The notes under the pieces were generated by a model, which was given only the letters and a program-made list of their open reading frames with translations, was not told the DNA's origin and searched no databases. Both the position numbers and the translations under genes were made by a program. A stretch of 64,000 nucleotides of DNA from an uncultured Helicobacteraceae bacterium. Lineage in GTDB: Bacteria > Campylobacterota > Campylobacteria > Campylobacterales > Helicobacteraceae. The stretch's first letter is position 1; each line of letters starts with the position of its first letter. Shown here piece by piece: positions 3,913 through 62,010 of this stretch. Location of the stretch: contig CANQAN010000001.1 in NCBI GenBank assembly GCA_947588965.1, positions 62,001 to 126,000 of the forward strand, in the 5' to 3' direction.

Positions 3913-5037
3913 TTATTTTGTCCCTTGAGATTCTTGTGCTTTCATGGGAGAGACGGGCATCCCCGGACGAATCTTAATTAATTGGCTCGTAACAATCACA
4001 TCGCCCTCTTTTAAGCCACTCTTAACAATCACTTGATTCCCTGTCGTATAACCAAGCTCTAAAGGAGCAACTTGTGCCTTTCCATCAACTATCTTATAGA
4101 CATAGCTTCCATTTTTGTCTTGCATTAACGCAACTTGCGGAATCGCAATAGAATTTTTCAAAAGAAAACCATCCAACTTCACGCGTGAAAACTCGCCCGG
4201 AACAAGCAAATTCTCCGGATTTTCTACAATGGAACGCGCCTTGATTGTCGCGGTATTCGCATCAATGACTGCATCAACAAAATCTATGCGCCCCTCCTTG
4301 TCGTAATGACTGCCATCTCCTAAGACATAATGCACTTTTACAGAATCCCTATCTAATGTGCGCAAAAAATAATAATCATTGCTGGGAATAGAAAATTCCG
4401 CATGGATGGGATCAAGCTGCGTCACAGTCGTAAGGACATTATTTGCACCCGCTTTCCCAACTAAATCACCAATATCATACTGCTTCATGCCAATTTTCCC
4501 ACTCGCTGTTGCAACGACATCCGTATAACCTAGATCAATCATTGCTGTGTCAAGATTCGCACGCGCACTTGCTACAGAGGCATTTGCATTTTCATAAGCA
4601 GATTGCGCAGAATCGTATTCTTTGGGACTTAACGCATTTTCTTTAAACAACTTTTGCGCCCTTTCCCAATCACGTTGTGCTGCTTTAAAAGTGGCTTGTG
4701 CAGAGAGCAATTGCGCCCTTGCCATATTCGCAGTCGCTTGATATTTCGCAGGATCGATTTTAAAGAGCTTATCGCCCTTTTTCACCAATCCTCCCTCTGT
4801 GAAATGCTGCTCTAATAAAACTCCCTCTACACGCGCATACACACCGACACTCTGCAAACTCTTTAGCTGCGCAGGATATTCAAAGCTTATGATGATGTCT
4901 TGATTTTTAACCACATGAGTCATGACAGGAATCGCACCTTGCTCCTGCCCTAATGGCTTGTCTTTAGAACAAGCACTCAATAAAAAAATACCACTCATAA
5001 GACTTAAAAATATTTTCAAAATCAAACCATATTGCAT
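3913..5037 (-). CDS. cmeA: RND efflux periplasmic adaptor lipoprotein
   Basis: Membrane-fusion (adaptor) subunit linking the inner-membrane pump to the outer-membrane channel; AcrA/MexA/CmeA family, 374 residues. It begins with a lipoprotein signal peptide and lipobox (FLLSACSK). The lipoyl half-motif (SVGVYARVEGVLLEQHFTEG) and a helical hairpin rich in Ala, Gln and Arg (about residues 95-165) are followed by the beta-barrel region. It is first in the operon. An inverted repeat resembling a CmeR operator lies 38-54 bases upstream of the start codon. Confidence 0.95.
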   Translation of the reverse strand: MQYGLILKIFLSLMSGIFLLSACSKDKPLGQEQGAIPVMTHVVKNQDIIISFEYPAQLKSLQSVGVYARVEGVLLEQHFTEGGLVKKGDKLFKIDPAKYQATANMARAQLLSAQATFKAAQRDWERAQKLFKENALSPKEYDSAQSAYENANASVASARANLDTAMIDLGYTDVVATASGKIGMKQYDIGDLVGKAGANNVLTTVTQLDPIHAEFSIPSNDYYFLRTLDRDSVKVHYVLGDGSHYDKEGRIDFVDAVIDANTATIKARSIVENPENLLVPGEFSRVKLDGFLLKNSIAIPQVALMQDKNGSYVYKIVDGKAQVAPLELGYTTGNQVIVKSGLKEGDVIVTSQLIKIRPGMPVSPMKAQESQGTK

Positions 5038-57314: not shown

Positions 57315-58274
57315 TTATTTAATCATAAAGCGCCTTAGCGCATCTTCAATTTGTACAGGATTTGACTTTGAGATAAATTCATCAGCGTTGAGCGATCGCG
57401 CCATGTCCTCATTGCTACTTCCACTCATAGAAGAATTCACGACAATAGGTATTCTTGCAGTCATCGGATTTGCCTTGACTTGCTTGATGACCTCAAAACC
57501 GCTTGCCTCTGGCATTTCTAAGTCTGTAATGATGATCCCAATTCTAGAAATATCTGTGTCTTGCGCAAACAAATAATCCAACAACTTCTGTCCATTGACA
57601 AAAGTTTTGTAATTGACACCCAATTTGTTAAGGATATTTTGCATAGTCTTAATGACACTTGGGGAATCATCTGCCAATAAAACTTCATTGTCTGTTACGA
57701 TTTGTCTGATTTTATCCACTTCTGCATTTTTCTCATCTTCAATCCACGGGAACACATCAACAAGCATTTTTTCAATATCCACAACCTGCACCAAGCGCCC
57801 ATCATAATAACGCGTCCTGCTGACTAGTTTGCTATTCAATCCCGAATTTCCGATTCCAGCACTCTGCTCAATTTCTGTCCATTTTTTATTTAAGATTCTG
57901 TCCGCTTCATAGATCCTCACGCCAACAGTCCATCGCGAAAACTCACAAATCATAATCACCTCATCCTCACCCGGCTCTCTTTTTATCGCATAGGGAGCGA
58001 GATCTTTGCTTCTCTCCCTCGCATCAAAGTAAAACCATTTGCGCAAATCAATAAGAGGAATCGTCAGCTCACGTATCGTAATGAGCCCCTCAACAAGCGA
58101 ACTTCCCTCGTGCGAAACCACAGTAATCTCTCCGCGATATTTGACGACCTCGCGTATTTTAAACACATTCACAGCAAAGAGATCCTTATCTTTTTCAAGC
58201 CGAAAGCACAAAAGCTGTAATTCGTTATTTCTATGCAGATTGGTAATCTGATCAACATTAGACAAATTGGACAT
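57315..58274 (-). CDS. cheV: Chemotaxis coupling/response regulator protein CheV
   Basis: 319 residues: an N-terminal CheW domain (LLCFRLEKDKDLFAVNVFKI, about 20-165, with VVSHEGSSLVEGLITIRELT) followed by a receiver domain (about 190-319). The phosphorylated aspartate is in IIITDLEMPEASGFEVIKQV, with the switch Ser/Thr in VVNSSMSG and the lysine in FISKSNP. CheV links chemoreceptors to CheA and is phosphorylated. It is one of possibly several CheV paralogues, as in H. pylori. The window also holds two receptors and CetB. Confidence 0.96.
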   Translation of the reverse strand: MSNLSNVDQITNLHRNNELQLLCFRLEKDKDLFAVNVFKIREVVKYRGEITVVSHEGSSLVEGLITIRELTIPLIDLRKWFYFDARERSKDLAPYAIKREPGEDEVIMICEFSRWTVGVRIYEADRILNKKWTEIEQSAGIGNSGLNSKLVSRTRYYDGRLVQVVDIEKMLVDVFPWIEDEKNAEVDKIRQIVTDNEVLLADDSPSVIKTMQNILNKLGVNYKTFVNGQKLLDYLFAQDTDISRIGIIITDLEMPEASGFEVIKQVKANPMTARIPIVVNSSMSGSSNEDMARSLNADEFISKSNPVQIEDALRRFMIK

Positions 58275-58403: not shown

Positions 58404-59006
58404 TTATCTTTTTGCCTCTCTTCTTTTTATATTTTTCTCTCGCACAGAGCTATTTTTGAGTAATTCAGCGTGTCTGTCTTTAATATCTGTTGGCCAATCC
58501 CTTCCTTGCTCTTGCACATTCCAATCAGGATGTTTGCCATTCTCAACACTCAAATAATCCTCCACACAACATTGCTCAATGAGCTTGTAAGAAATATATG
58601 CATTTTGTATCTTTTTGACGCCAAATAAACCTTTGATTTCTTTTTCAAAATTCTCTTGATAGATCATATAAAATTCTATTTTTGCACCACTTAAAATTGT
58701 ATAATACAAAAAAATACCATACCCCAAAACTACGAATGCTAGGGCGACCCTTCGTTCCACCATCTCTATAAATGGATAGAGTATTTTTTATCCCGCCTTC
58801 CGCTTGACTTCCACCAATCTTTTTTATCTCACCATCAACAACGATAAGATAAACTCTTGCTACATTTTGTGTCAAAATGCTTTGTGGTAAAGTATTCCTT
58901 TTTCATTTTTTAAATCTTTAAGGTAATTAAAGTTTAACCTTGTGCTTCCCTTTACAAACTCCACATCAGCGATTTTAAAGGCGGTTTTCACTTCACTTAT
59001 TTTCAT
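58404..59006 (-). pseudogene. Frameshifted partner of the adenine methyltransferase (putative restriction endonuclease)
   Basis: Three reading-frame segments line up into one protein of about 200 residues. Segment 1 (59006-58872) begins MKISEVKTAFKIADVEFVKG and stops after ILYHKAF. Segment 2 (to about 58708) continues ILTQNVARVYLIVVDGEIKK. Segment 3 (58404 on) continues YYTILSGAKIEFYMIYQ and ends with a lysine/arginine tail. A +1 base in CTTTACC would join 1 to 2 as GILLPQSIL; loss of one T in a run of seven (58708-58714) would join 2 to 3 as WYFLYYT. The segment VYLIVVDGEIKKIGGSQAEG looks faintly like a GIY-YIG nuclease (VYxx...KIG), an inference only. The gene follows a DNA methyltransferase with a 4-base ATGA coupling, as restriction-modification genes do. 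Confidence 0.7.
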
Positions 59007-59124
59007 AAAGTATTCCTTTTTCATTTTTTAAATCTTTAAGGTAATTAAAGTTTAACCTTGTGCTTCCCTTTACAAACTCCACATCAGCGATTTTAAAGGC
59101 GGTTTTCACTTCACTTATTTTCAT
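58889..59124 (-). repeat. Perfect 118-bp tandem duplication
   Basis: Two identical head-to-tail copies, 58889-59006 and 59007-59124. Each begins (minus strand) ATGAAAATAAGTGAAGTG and ends GGAATACTTT, so the unit is exactly the first 118 bases of the downstream gene, including its start codon. Because 118 is not a multiple of three, the copy next to the methyltransferase reads only 43 codons (58993-59124) and then stops in TGA at the junction. The second copy supplies a new start. A recent event, since no base differs. Confidence 0.97.
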
Positions 59125-60098
59125 AACGACTCCTTTATGATTAATAACTCATGGCTTTGCTTGATATTATCTGCACTGCCACGTTCTAAGCGGTTCTTGC
59201 CTATGCGTATTTCGCCCTGTCCCATTGTGTATTGCCATTGAGGCTCTAGGATTTTAAAATCCCTATATGTTTTCCTTACAAATTCACAATCATTATAACT
59301 TAAGATAAATTTGCCTTTATGATTTTTAAGGCATTGTGCTAAAAGCTCGTGTTTAAAGTCCTTATGATGGATAGGAAAATTTCGCATAGGGTAAATTCCT
59401 TTAAACATTTGGGAATCTCCCTCTAAAAAATAAGGGGGATCGCAATAGAAAAATTCGTTAGGATACCTTTGAAAAACCCTTTCAAAACTTTCACATTCCA
59501 CACTTAAATTTTGAGTTTTAAAATTCTTAATCTTCTCTAAAGCACTCAAATAACGTTCTCTATCCTCATAAATCTTACTCATCCAGCCCAAAAATCCGGG
59601 TCCATAGCTAAGATTAAAATTAAAATAATAATCCCTTGCAAGCATTAAGGAATCCAAATGTCTTTGTGGAATATTTTTTGTATTTTTATGTCTGTCATTC
59701 CAAAAGGCTTTAAGCTCATCTTTTATGTGTGCGTAAGTTTCTTTTGTCGGCTCAAGTTTGAGGAGCTCTTCATAGAGACTTTGAGAATCTGCAATCAAAA
59801 CCTGCCAAAAATTCACTAAAACATCAAAAACATCAAAGGCTTTGACTTCTAAGTTAAGCTCTAAAGCACTTGCAACTTCAACACTTCCTCCACCTATAAA
59901 GGGGCTCACAAGCCTCTTTAAATCATTTGGAAAATGCTCTACGATTAATCCCACAGCCAAAGACTTACCCCCACCATAACGTAAAGGACTTTTGCTATAG
60001 CGTTTATAATTGAGCGTTTTCTTACTCTTAAGAGAGTGCAAAAACAAATCTTTTTTATTCTTTAAAGATTCACCACTCAAATATTCTCCTAAGGACAT
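59121..60098 (-). CDS. D12-class adenine-specific DNA methyltransferase
   Basis: 325 residues. Dam-like layout: SPLRYGGGKSLAVGLI (motif X), SPFIGGGSVEVASAL (motif I, the SAM site), and FYCDPPYFLEGDSQMF (motif IV, DPPY) for N6-adenine transfer. Its stop overlaps the start of the downstream gene (ATGA). It begins 5 bases after cetA on the same strand, an odd site for a restriction-modification gene and suggestive of insertion. Recognition sequence is unknown. With its partner broken, it would be an orphan methyltransferase. Confidence 0.93.
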   Translation of the reverse strand: MSLGEYLSGESLKNKKDLFLHSLKSKKTLNYKRYSKSPLRYGGGKSLAVGLIVEHFPNDLKRLVSPFIGGGSVEVASALELNLEVKAFDVFDVLVNFWQVLIADSQSLYEELLKLEPTKETYAHIKDELKAFWNDRHKNTKNIPQRHLDSLMLARDYYFNFNLSYGPGFLGWMSKIYEDRERYLSALEKIKNFKTQNLSVECESFERVFQRYPNEFFYCDPPYFLEGDSQMFKGIYPMRNFPIHHKDFKHELLAQCLKNHKGKFILSYNDCEFVRKTYRDFKILEPQWQYTMGQGEIRIGKNRLERGSADNIKQSHELLIIKESL

Positions 60099-60103
60099 TT
60101 AAC

Positions 60104-61480
60104 TTAATGCACTTCCAAAAGCTTAATGGCGTTTTGAGACTGCTTTTCTATCTCTTCAAAGGTTGCAATGATTGATTCTATGCTTTCTTTTGTCAAGGGA
60201 TGACTCAACTCCTCTAATGCTTCTTGTGTATTTGTGACAAGATCAGATTTGATTTGATTTAGAGATTCCACATCAAGCTCTTTTATGCGCATAAGCGATG
60301 CGCTATGATCAAGATATTTAGAAATAGGATTCGTTGCGCTAAAGTCAAAGATTTGCTTTTTGAGATTGAAACTCAAATATAAATTAGATTTATACACAAT
60401 ATGCTCTAACTTAGAAATGCTAAGAAGCAATCTCGCATAAAGCGCATCAAAAACCTCTTGCAGATTCGCAGTTGTCTGCTCCATTTTGCTAAAAACATCG
60501 TTGAAATTTGCAATGTTACTGTGTGTGGAATTTGCAAAGTCGGCGATCTGTGTGAAACTGTCTTGTATCTCGGCAATCTCTTGTTGCATATTTTGTACGA
60601 CAATAGAGATTCCATTGGTTGCTTTATGTGTTTTTTCTGCGAGCTGTCGCACTTCATCGGCAACAACGGCAAAGCCTCTCCCATGTTCCCCCGCTCTTGC
60701 AGCTTCTATGCTTGCATTAAGGGCAAGCAGATTGGTTTGATTGGCAATATCAGCAATGATCTCCACGACAGAACTGATTTCTTTTGACTTTTGTTGAAAA
60801 TTATCCACTGTGGCGACATTTTCATTAATCAAACTCATAAGCTCATCAATAGAACCCGTGATGCTCTCAACATCTCTTTGGGAACTGCGCGTATTTTTGG
60901 TGATTTTTGTTACATTTTCATTGACGATATCCAATTGCTGCATATCACCGTCCAAATCTGAAGAGATTTTTGTGAGATTGGTGTTTTGACTCCCCAAACT
61001 CATATCCAAAAGAGATTTTGCTAGGGCATTTTGCAGATTGTCTTTTGCATTTTCTTTGATTTTTAAGAGTGCGTCATTAATGTCATTGATATTTTGGATA
61101 AAGGAACCCTTCAATCCTTGCGCATAGGCGAGACGATAATACTTACCCTCTTGTGAGCAATGAATTGCCGTTGCAATCTCACGCATAAAGGCTTCTAAAT
61201 TATCCGCAACGGTATTGAGATTGTTTGCCATTGTGCAAAGATCCAAATCGCCCTTAATGCGCAAGATACGCTTTTCAAACTTCCCTTGTTGGTAGAGTTT
61301 GGAGACTTCTAGCATCCTGCAAATAAAATTTTCGCGCTTTTTGAATCTGAAAAATCCCATAACAATCACCAGACAAATCAAAATATAAAAGACAAGATAA
61401 AGCCCTAATCCCTGTAAAAAGACCCCAACAAAAAATCCTAACACACTCAATACAATTCCGCACATTAAGAGAGTTTTCAC
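60104..61480 (-). CDS. cetA: Energy-taxis chemoreceptor CetA-like
   Basis: 458 residues from GTG 61480, whose GTGA overlaps the cetB stop by 4 bases; an AGGAGG site lies six bases upstream. The ATG at 61534 would overlap cetB by 58 bases without such a site. Two close transmembrane helices (about residues 5-48) with no periplasmic sensor lead to a HAMP-like region and the signalling tip ([20 protein letters not shown]). After it comes [15 protein letters not shown], resembling the chemoreceptor zinc-binding (CZB) domain, without the expected cysteine. In C. jejuni CetA signals for the PAS protein CetB. Confidence 0.85.
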
Positions 61481-62010
61481 CAATAACCTCCTATTTTGCC
61501 TTGATCCTGAAGATTGATCATTAATTCTGTCCAAGTGATTTTGTTCTGTTCTAAATAATCTAAGACAAATTGCACACTTGCATTCATATCTTGCTCTTTT
61601 TCGATCTGCAAAAGCTGATTGTAGATTCCTATAACTGCTTCCACTCCCGCCTTACTCGGTCTTCTCCGCACAGAATAATAGCTAATCATTGCCCCTTTTT
61701 CATCATAAGATGGAGTTACATTTGTAAAAACCCAATACGTCCCACCATTTCTTGAGAGATTACACACAAAAGCAAAGAACTCCTTTCCATTTTGTATGAA
61801 GTTCCACAACAATTTAAACGCAGCACGTGGCATAAAAGGATGGCGCACAATACTATGTGGTTTGCCTAAGAATTGTTCTTCACTATAACCACTATAATGG
61901 ATAAAATCAAGATTCCCATAGATGATTTTTCCTTGCAAATCCGTCTTAGAAGTGATTAAAGTGTCATTTTGTAAAAAAATTTCATTTTTTAAAAGATGAG
62001 TGAAATCCAT
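61477..62010 (-). CDS. cetB: PAS-domain redox sensor CetB-like (Aer-type)
   Basis: 177 residues, soluble, with one Aer-like PAS domain (about residues 15-120): [40 protein letters not shown], and [17 protein letters not shown]. Such domains bind FAD and report respiratory redox state. Coupled to the CetA-like receptor by a 4-base overlap, so sensor and transducer are split between two proteins, unlike E. coli Aer. No equivalent is known to me in H. pylori. Confidence 0.88.

Follow-up and report, generated by a model that had tools for sequence, protein, structure and literature searches.

Probable recent decay of an Hpy188I-family nuclease gene, with a 118-bp start-codon duplication, beside an intact D12 adenine methyltransferase in a Helicobacteraceae genome

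The locus analyzed here raises the question of why a gene coupled to an intact adenine methyltransferase should carry an exact duplication of its start and a frame broken at two points. It lies in a 64,000-nucleotide stretch of DNA from an uncultured Helicobacteraceae bacterium (hereafter, the window) and is single-copy in the source genome. A preliminary description made from the letters of the window had proposed the recent loss of a restriction enzyme, a reversible switch or, for the single-base breaks, a sequencing error. Its account of the layout was accurate: the stop codon of a D12-class methyltransferase gene overlaps the start codon of its partner, the first 118 bases of the partner are exactly duplicated, the remaining frame is broken twice, and the copy coupled to the methyltransferase yields only 43 residues (Table 1). 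Its claim that the other copy reinitiates translation stands insofar as that copy has a start codon preceded by an AAGGA motif, but the frame ends after 44 codons, or 50 residues when started at the ATG at 59024, and provides no usable enzyme. In the list of open reading frames, the locus has no nuclease frame that is unbroken.

Table 1. Coordinates of the methyltransferase gene, the duplicated start and the remaining pieces of the nuclease gene in the window.
Feature	Position	Strand	Evidence or remark
D12-class (PF02086) DNA adenine methyltransferase, intact, 325 aa, M.HpyAORF481P-like type II MTase	59121..60098	-	Pfam E 1.2e-44; PADLOC MTase_II E 4e-149
118-bp direct repeat, copy A; ATG 59124-59122 overlaps MTase stop TGA (ATGA)	59006..59123	-	
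118-bp direct repeat, copy B, identical to copy A; ATG 59006-59004, AAGGA motif before ATG	58888..59005	-	
Copy A ORF, 43 aa: nuclease residues 1-39, then stop within copy B	58993..59124	-	
Copy B ORF, 44 codons: nuclease residues 1 to ~39, then frame break and TGA	58872..59006	-	
Frame break 1, codons ~37-43, one base off relative to intact relatives	about 58878..58897	-	Comparison with about 50 relatives
Nuclease segment 2, other frame, GIY-YIG core (VYLIV..KKIGG..GRPSIRSFG)	58715..58875	-	Mostly 82-94% identity to intact relatives
Frame break 2, T7 on coding strand (A7 on forward)	58708..58714	-	T6 is the longest run here in intact relatives
Nuclease segment 3, C-terminal half (catalytic Glu, WNVQEQG), 101 residues, third frame stretch	58404..58706	-	69-88% identity to relatives
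TTA microhomology	59124..59126 (left breakpoint); 59006-59008 (junction); 58888-58890 (right breakpoint)	-	

The partner had been held to be of no nameable family, with a faint resemblance to GIY-YIG nucleases. Searches with its pieces against Pfam, NCBIfam and PADLOC returned no informative family, nor did searches with an intact homologue against Pfam or PADLOC. Intact homologues of approximately 200 aa are nonetheless found directly after the same methyltransferase in many Helicobacteraceae, and the window pieces are ~69-94% identical to the matching parts of these proteins. A profile of 22 homologues identified Hpy188I among PDB entries (E 7.5e-5), and an AF2 model of the intact H. japonicus homologue built from 22 sequences (pLDDT 88), which superseded a poor model from 10 close sequences (pLDDT 59.5), matched Hpy188I (3oqg, E 7e-7; also 3or3) and T4 EndoII (2wsh, E 1e-5) in Foldseek. 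With the same model, VIA returned T4 EndoII at Z 13.4 (2.4 A over 129 residues) and Hpy188I at Z 9.5, and a PHROG hit was to phrog_1111, an endonuclease family. Phage matches were to cyanophages, several of them adjoining an annotated DNA methylase, and there were no plasmid matches. The profile, AF2, Foldseek and VIA results make the GIY-YIG relationship firm and the family identifiable as that of Hpy188I.

Two residues, Y53 and K63, are invariant among the 22 homologues, so that the GIY tyrosine is kept and a lysine replaces the tyrosine of YIG; segment 2 of the window likewise carries VYLIV..KKIGG. The arginine of the orthodox helix and both cysteines are absent, and R92 is invariant in a loop, in an HMM alignment whose register does not match the published position 104/105. 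R.HpyAORF481P and its relatives constitute a described second branch of the Hpy188I family, characterized by alpha-class PF02086 methylases and a lysine in the YIG half-motif (PMC2630997), with no target specificity given for this branch in the literature searched. Judged by sequence, the window partner belongs to the R.HpyAORF481P branch of Hpy188I GIY-YIG restriction enzymes, as a pseudogene.

Homologues of the methyltransferase are present in 48 of 121 family genomes, and the comparison of the locus among relatives that the preliminary description had proposed recovered intact nuclease homologues, of this restriction-enzyme branch, beside an intact methyltransferase at about 28 of 53 related loci, a count that includes one locus (G081) scored as intact despite a frameshift near codon 10. 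The methyltransferase is intact and the nuclease broken or absent at 12 of these loci, and at 3 the nuclease is intact beside a broken or missing methylase. Locus L106 (G036), as well as L107 (G031), L109 (G044) and L110 (G038), combines a truncated or frameshifted methylase with a complete or almost complete nuclease frame; without its methylase such a nuclease should be harmful, and is presumably silent or otherwise protected. At another locus (L111, G117, 128-991), a 139-aa protein with weak similarity (26%) to nuclease residues 51-198 is encoded between the methylase and the frameshifted original nuclease, possibly representing a partner replacement in progress. The pair can also be multiplied. 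A complete genome holds it in three copies (L058, G085:C1:296500-311000; L059, G085:C1:50500-55500), two of them in a tandem array whose 5,776-bp units additionally encode a 517-aa protein and two further DNA methylases; the third copy lies ~250 kb away, and the arrangement looks like an amplification of the restriction-modification (RM) cluster. The window pair itself is flanked by CheV-like and methyl-accepting chemotaxis genes (57315-58274 and 60104-61534). Because these flanking genes are adjacent in none of 18 same-genus genomes (0/18), and often differ in orientation, the pair sits at a rearrangement breakpoint, and no clean empty site can be read from these genomes.

Within the window, the two 118-bp units abut head to tail with 100% identity and no DNA between them, forming a TRF array (58888-59126) of 2.03 copies at 100%, the excess over two copies being 3 bp. 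Tandem-repeat and homopolymer controls were computed on 280 kb of the contig bearing the window, where this is the sole tandem repeat with a period above 24 bp, so that chance is not the explanation. Frame break 1 falls within the final ten bases of the repeated unit and is hence the same in copies A and B, away from any long homopolymer. That one gene holds both a T7 run and a perfect tandem repeat had suggested a reversible on/off switch for the nuclease, operating through recombination between the repeats and slippage in the T run. With break 1 inside the unit, however, collapse to a single copy would leave the gene out of frame, and break 2 is independent of it; the frame could be opened only by two separate changes occurring together, not by one recombination or slippage event. 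A T7 run is also short for phase variation, the runs of intact relatives at this point are T6 or interrupted, and the 118-bp duplication is found in none of them. The frame arithmetic contradicts a switch, which is highly improbable.

The position of break 2 in a homopolymer and the draft status of the source assembly (21 contigs) would fit an alternative in which one or both single-base breaks are sequencing or assembly errors. The same contig, though, carries 122 A7/T7 and 31 A8/T8 runs inside open reading frames of at least 100 aa, at a coding fraction of 0.94. Break 1 is identical in both copies and lies outside long homopolymers, assemblers collapse perfect 118-bp tandem repeats more often than they invent them, the genome has a completeness score of 99.96%, and breaks occur in relatives at this very place. 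Error, which the preliminary description had left as an option, is in our view very unlikely, if somewhat less so than a switch.

The identity of break 1 in both copies is most simply explained if it is older than the duplication, and the nuclease was thus probably dead already when the 118-bp repeat arose. The duplication is bounded by a pair of similar sequences: AAAGGAGTCGTTA, which is the ribosome-binding site preceding the start codon, and AAAGGAATACTTTA, which lies within the gene. TTA is shared at the junction, and the repeat could be generated simply by slippage, or by illegitimate recombination, between the two sequences. In the sequence of events we propose, a small frameshift near codon 40 would first have disabled the nuclease, and 118 bp from the start codon would then have been duplicated by slippage or illegitimate recombination between the homeologous AAAGGA..TTA stretches, with the one-base gain in the T run taking place at any point in this order. 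Nuclease segments 2 and 3 (155 codons) show dN/dS values against relatives of 0.07-0.14 where dS is unsaturated, although synonymous changes are near saturation and the measure is therefore blunt. Intact pairs span the same range (0.07-0.14), suggesting that loss of the nuclease is recent.

Another reading is that internal starts still give rise to a functional nuclease, in split or shortened form. Three relatives (G008, G015 and G010) do retain a core frame open from residues 18, 30 and 40 onward, respectively, with the N-terminal 20-40 residues cut off. In the window, by contrast, the core is further split between its KIGG and Glu/Gln halves, and the N-terminal residues correspond to confident beta strands in the AF2 model; we give a working residual enzyme almost no credence. 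The lesions, the family assignment, the intact relatives and the dN/dS values instead bear out the first of the readings originally proposed, the recent loss of a restriction enzyme beside an intact adenine methyltransferase. We consider it likely that the locus represents an HpyAORF481P-like type II RM system whose nuclease gene has recently become a pseudogene, through a frameshift and then a simple tandem duplication, and whose D12 methylase is intact and probably orphan.

The start of this nuclease gene is disrupted in many relatives. In H. mesocricetorum (L006, G008), a MunI-type RM system (MT-A70 methylase, MunI nuclease and HTH protein) lies inside the gene, flanked by 91-bp direct repeats corresponding to about codons 18-48. 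Other relatives carry, at the start codon, an N4/N6 methylase and a type II nuclease with 50-bp flanking repeats (L016/G013), a BsaWI-like nuclease and a methylase with 17-bp repeats of the ribosome-binding site (G068), or a D12 methylase and a 366-aa protein without repeats (L018/G015). The gene is cut at codon ~47 beside a TnpB-like gene in G050, with its two parts on separate contigs, and has its own frameshift near codon 42 in H. rodentium. At four further loci (L066, L075, L087 and L020), the sequence after the methylase changes to an unrelated gene exactly at the start codon, and in G029 a 14-bp tandem duplication with nothing inserted lies at the stop codon of the methylase. In a prophage-like contig with H. 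pylori-type flanks, the gene is split at codons ~34-39 between 17-bp direct repeats, likely the attachment site; the contig (L157 position 592-710 and L146 position 4000-4514; IMGVR_UViG_2531839608_000001) encodes a tyrosine integrase. As read from these loci, the nuclease start is repeatedly struck in relatives: foreign RM systems have inserted at least four times, and there are also an H. pylori prophage, an insertion sequence, independent frameshifts and replacements of the partner at the start codon. Published precedents exist for one RM system inserting into another, for long duplications of the target and for RM genes disrupted by prophages (PMC2630997, PMC3031569, PMC11321410).

This pattern brings in a further explanation, in which the 118-bp repeat is the footprint or intermediate of a foreign RM insertion with long target duplication, the insert having never been there or having been lost. 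RM insertion with long target duplication has been described in H. pylori (Nobusato et al. 2000, as cited in PMC2630997 and PMC3031569), whole RM systems occupy the same junction in relatives between direct repeats of the same stretch (91, 50 and 17 bp in G008, G013 and G068), and the 14-bp duplication in G029, at that junction too, is likewise empty. The defining feature, foreign DNA between the long repeats, is present in those three relatives and missing in the window. No ordinary mechanism would remove an insert exactly while sparing two perfect copies, since homologous recombination would also delete one of them, and the junction microhomology accounts for a simple tandem duplication without any insertion process. 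We regard an insertion footprint as doubtful, and as slightly more doubtful still the specific proposal that the empty duplication represents RM insertion arrested at its first step, with target duplication preceding the insertion of DNA, or occurring independently of it, at a site near the nuclease start that is breakage-prone in the Helicobacteraceae. Were the latter correct, it would imply a duplication-first mechanism for RM mobility.

Under the preferred reading of frameshift followed by simple tandem duplication, the window provides a further instance of RM decay where the nuclease is lost before the methylase, which persists, an ordinary outcome that is nevertheless useful for understanding the turnover of RM loci. 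Retention of the methylase would be expected because its loss is lethal while any nuclease remains, and methylation may also serve the cell by itself. The window extends what is known of disruption at this gene to a long duplication that holds no insert, and the nuclease start offers a natural test site for RM replacement and for the origin of long target duplications.

Several known systems resemble the locus in part. The closest are the HpyAORF481P, Hpy99ORF433P and CupORF237P RM systems (PMC2630997), in which, as in the window, an alpha-class PF02086 methylase is directly followed by a GIY-YIG nuclease of ~200 aa; in the C. upsaliensis case, another RM system is inserted between the two genes (PMC2630997). 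In contrast to systems of this kind, the window nuclease is a pseudogene with its start duplicated over 118 bp and no insert. With the long-target-duplication insertions (Nobusato et al. 2000, as relayed by later work; PMC3031569), the window shares a direct repeat of ~100 bp at an RM gene, and its relatives bear insertions at the same locus, but no DNA lies between the window repeats. H. pylori prophages that disrupt RM genes (PMC11321410) have a parallel in the prophage contig described above, which splits the homologous nuclease, while the window locus is free of phage DNA. The methylase is absent by name from the H. pylori methylome literature searched, and we offer no target motif for it. 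With its gene intact and no functional cognate nuclease, it is probably now an orphan methylase, and the locus in this respect resembles the orphan type II methyltransferases left after endonuclease loss, such as the GCGC and CATG methylases of H. pylori (PMC10423294), in which an intact methylase likewise accompanies a dead or missing nuclease.
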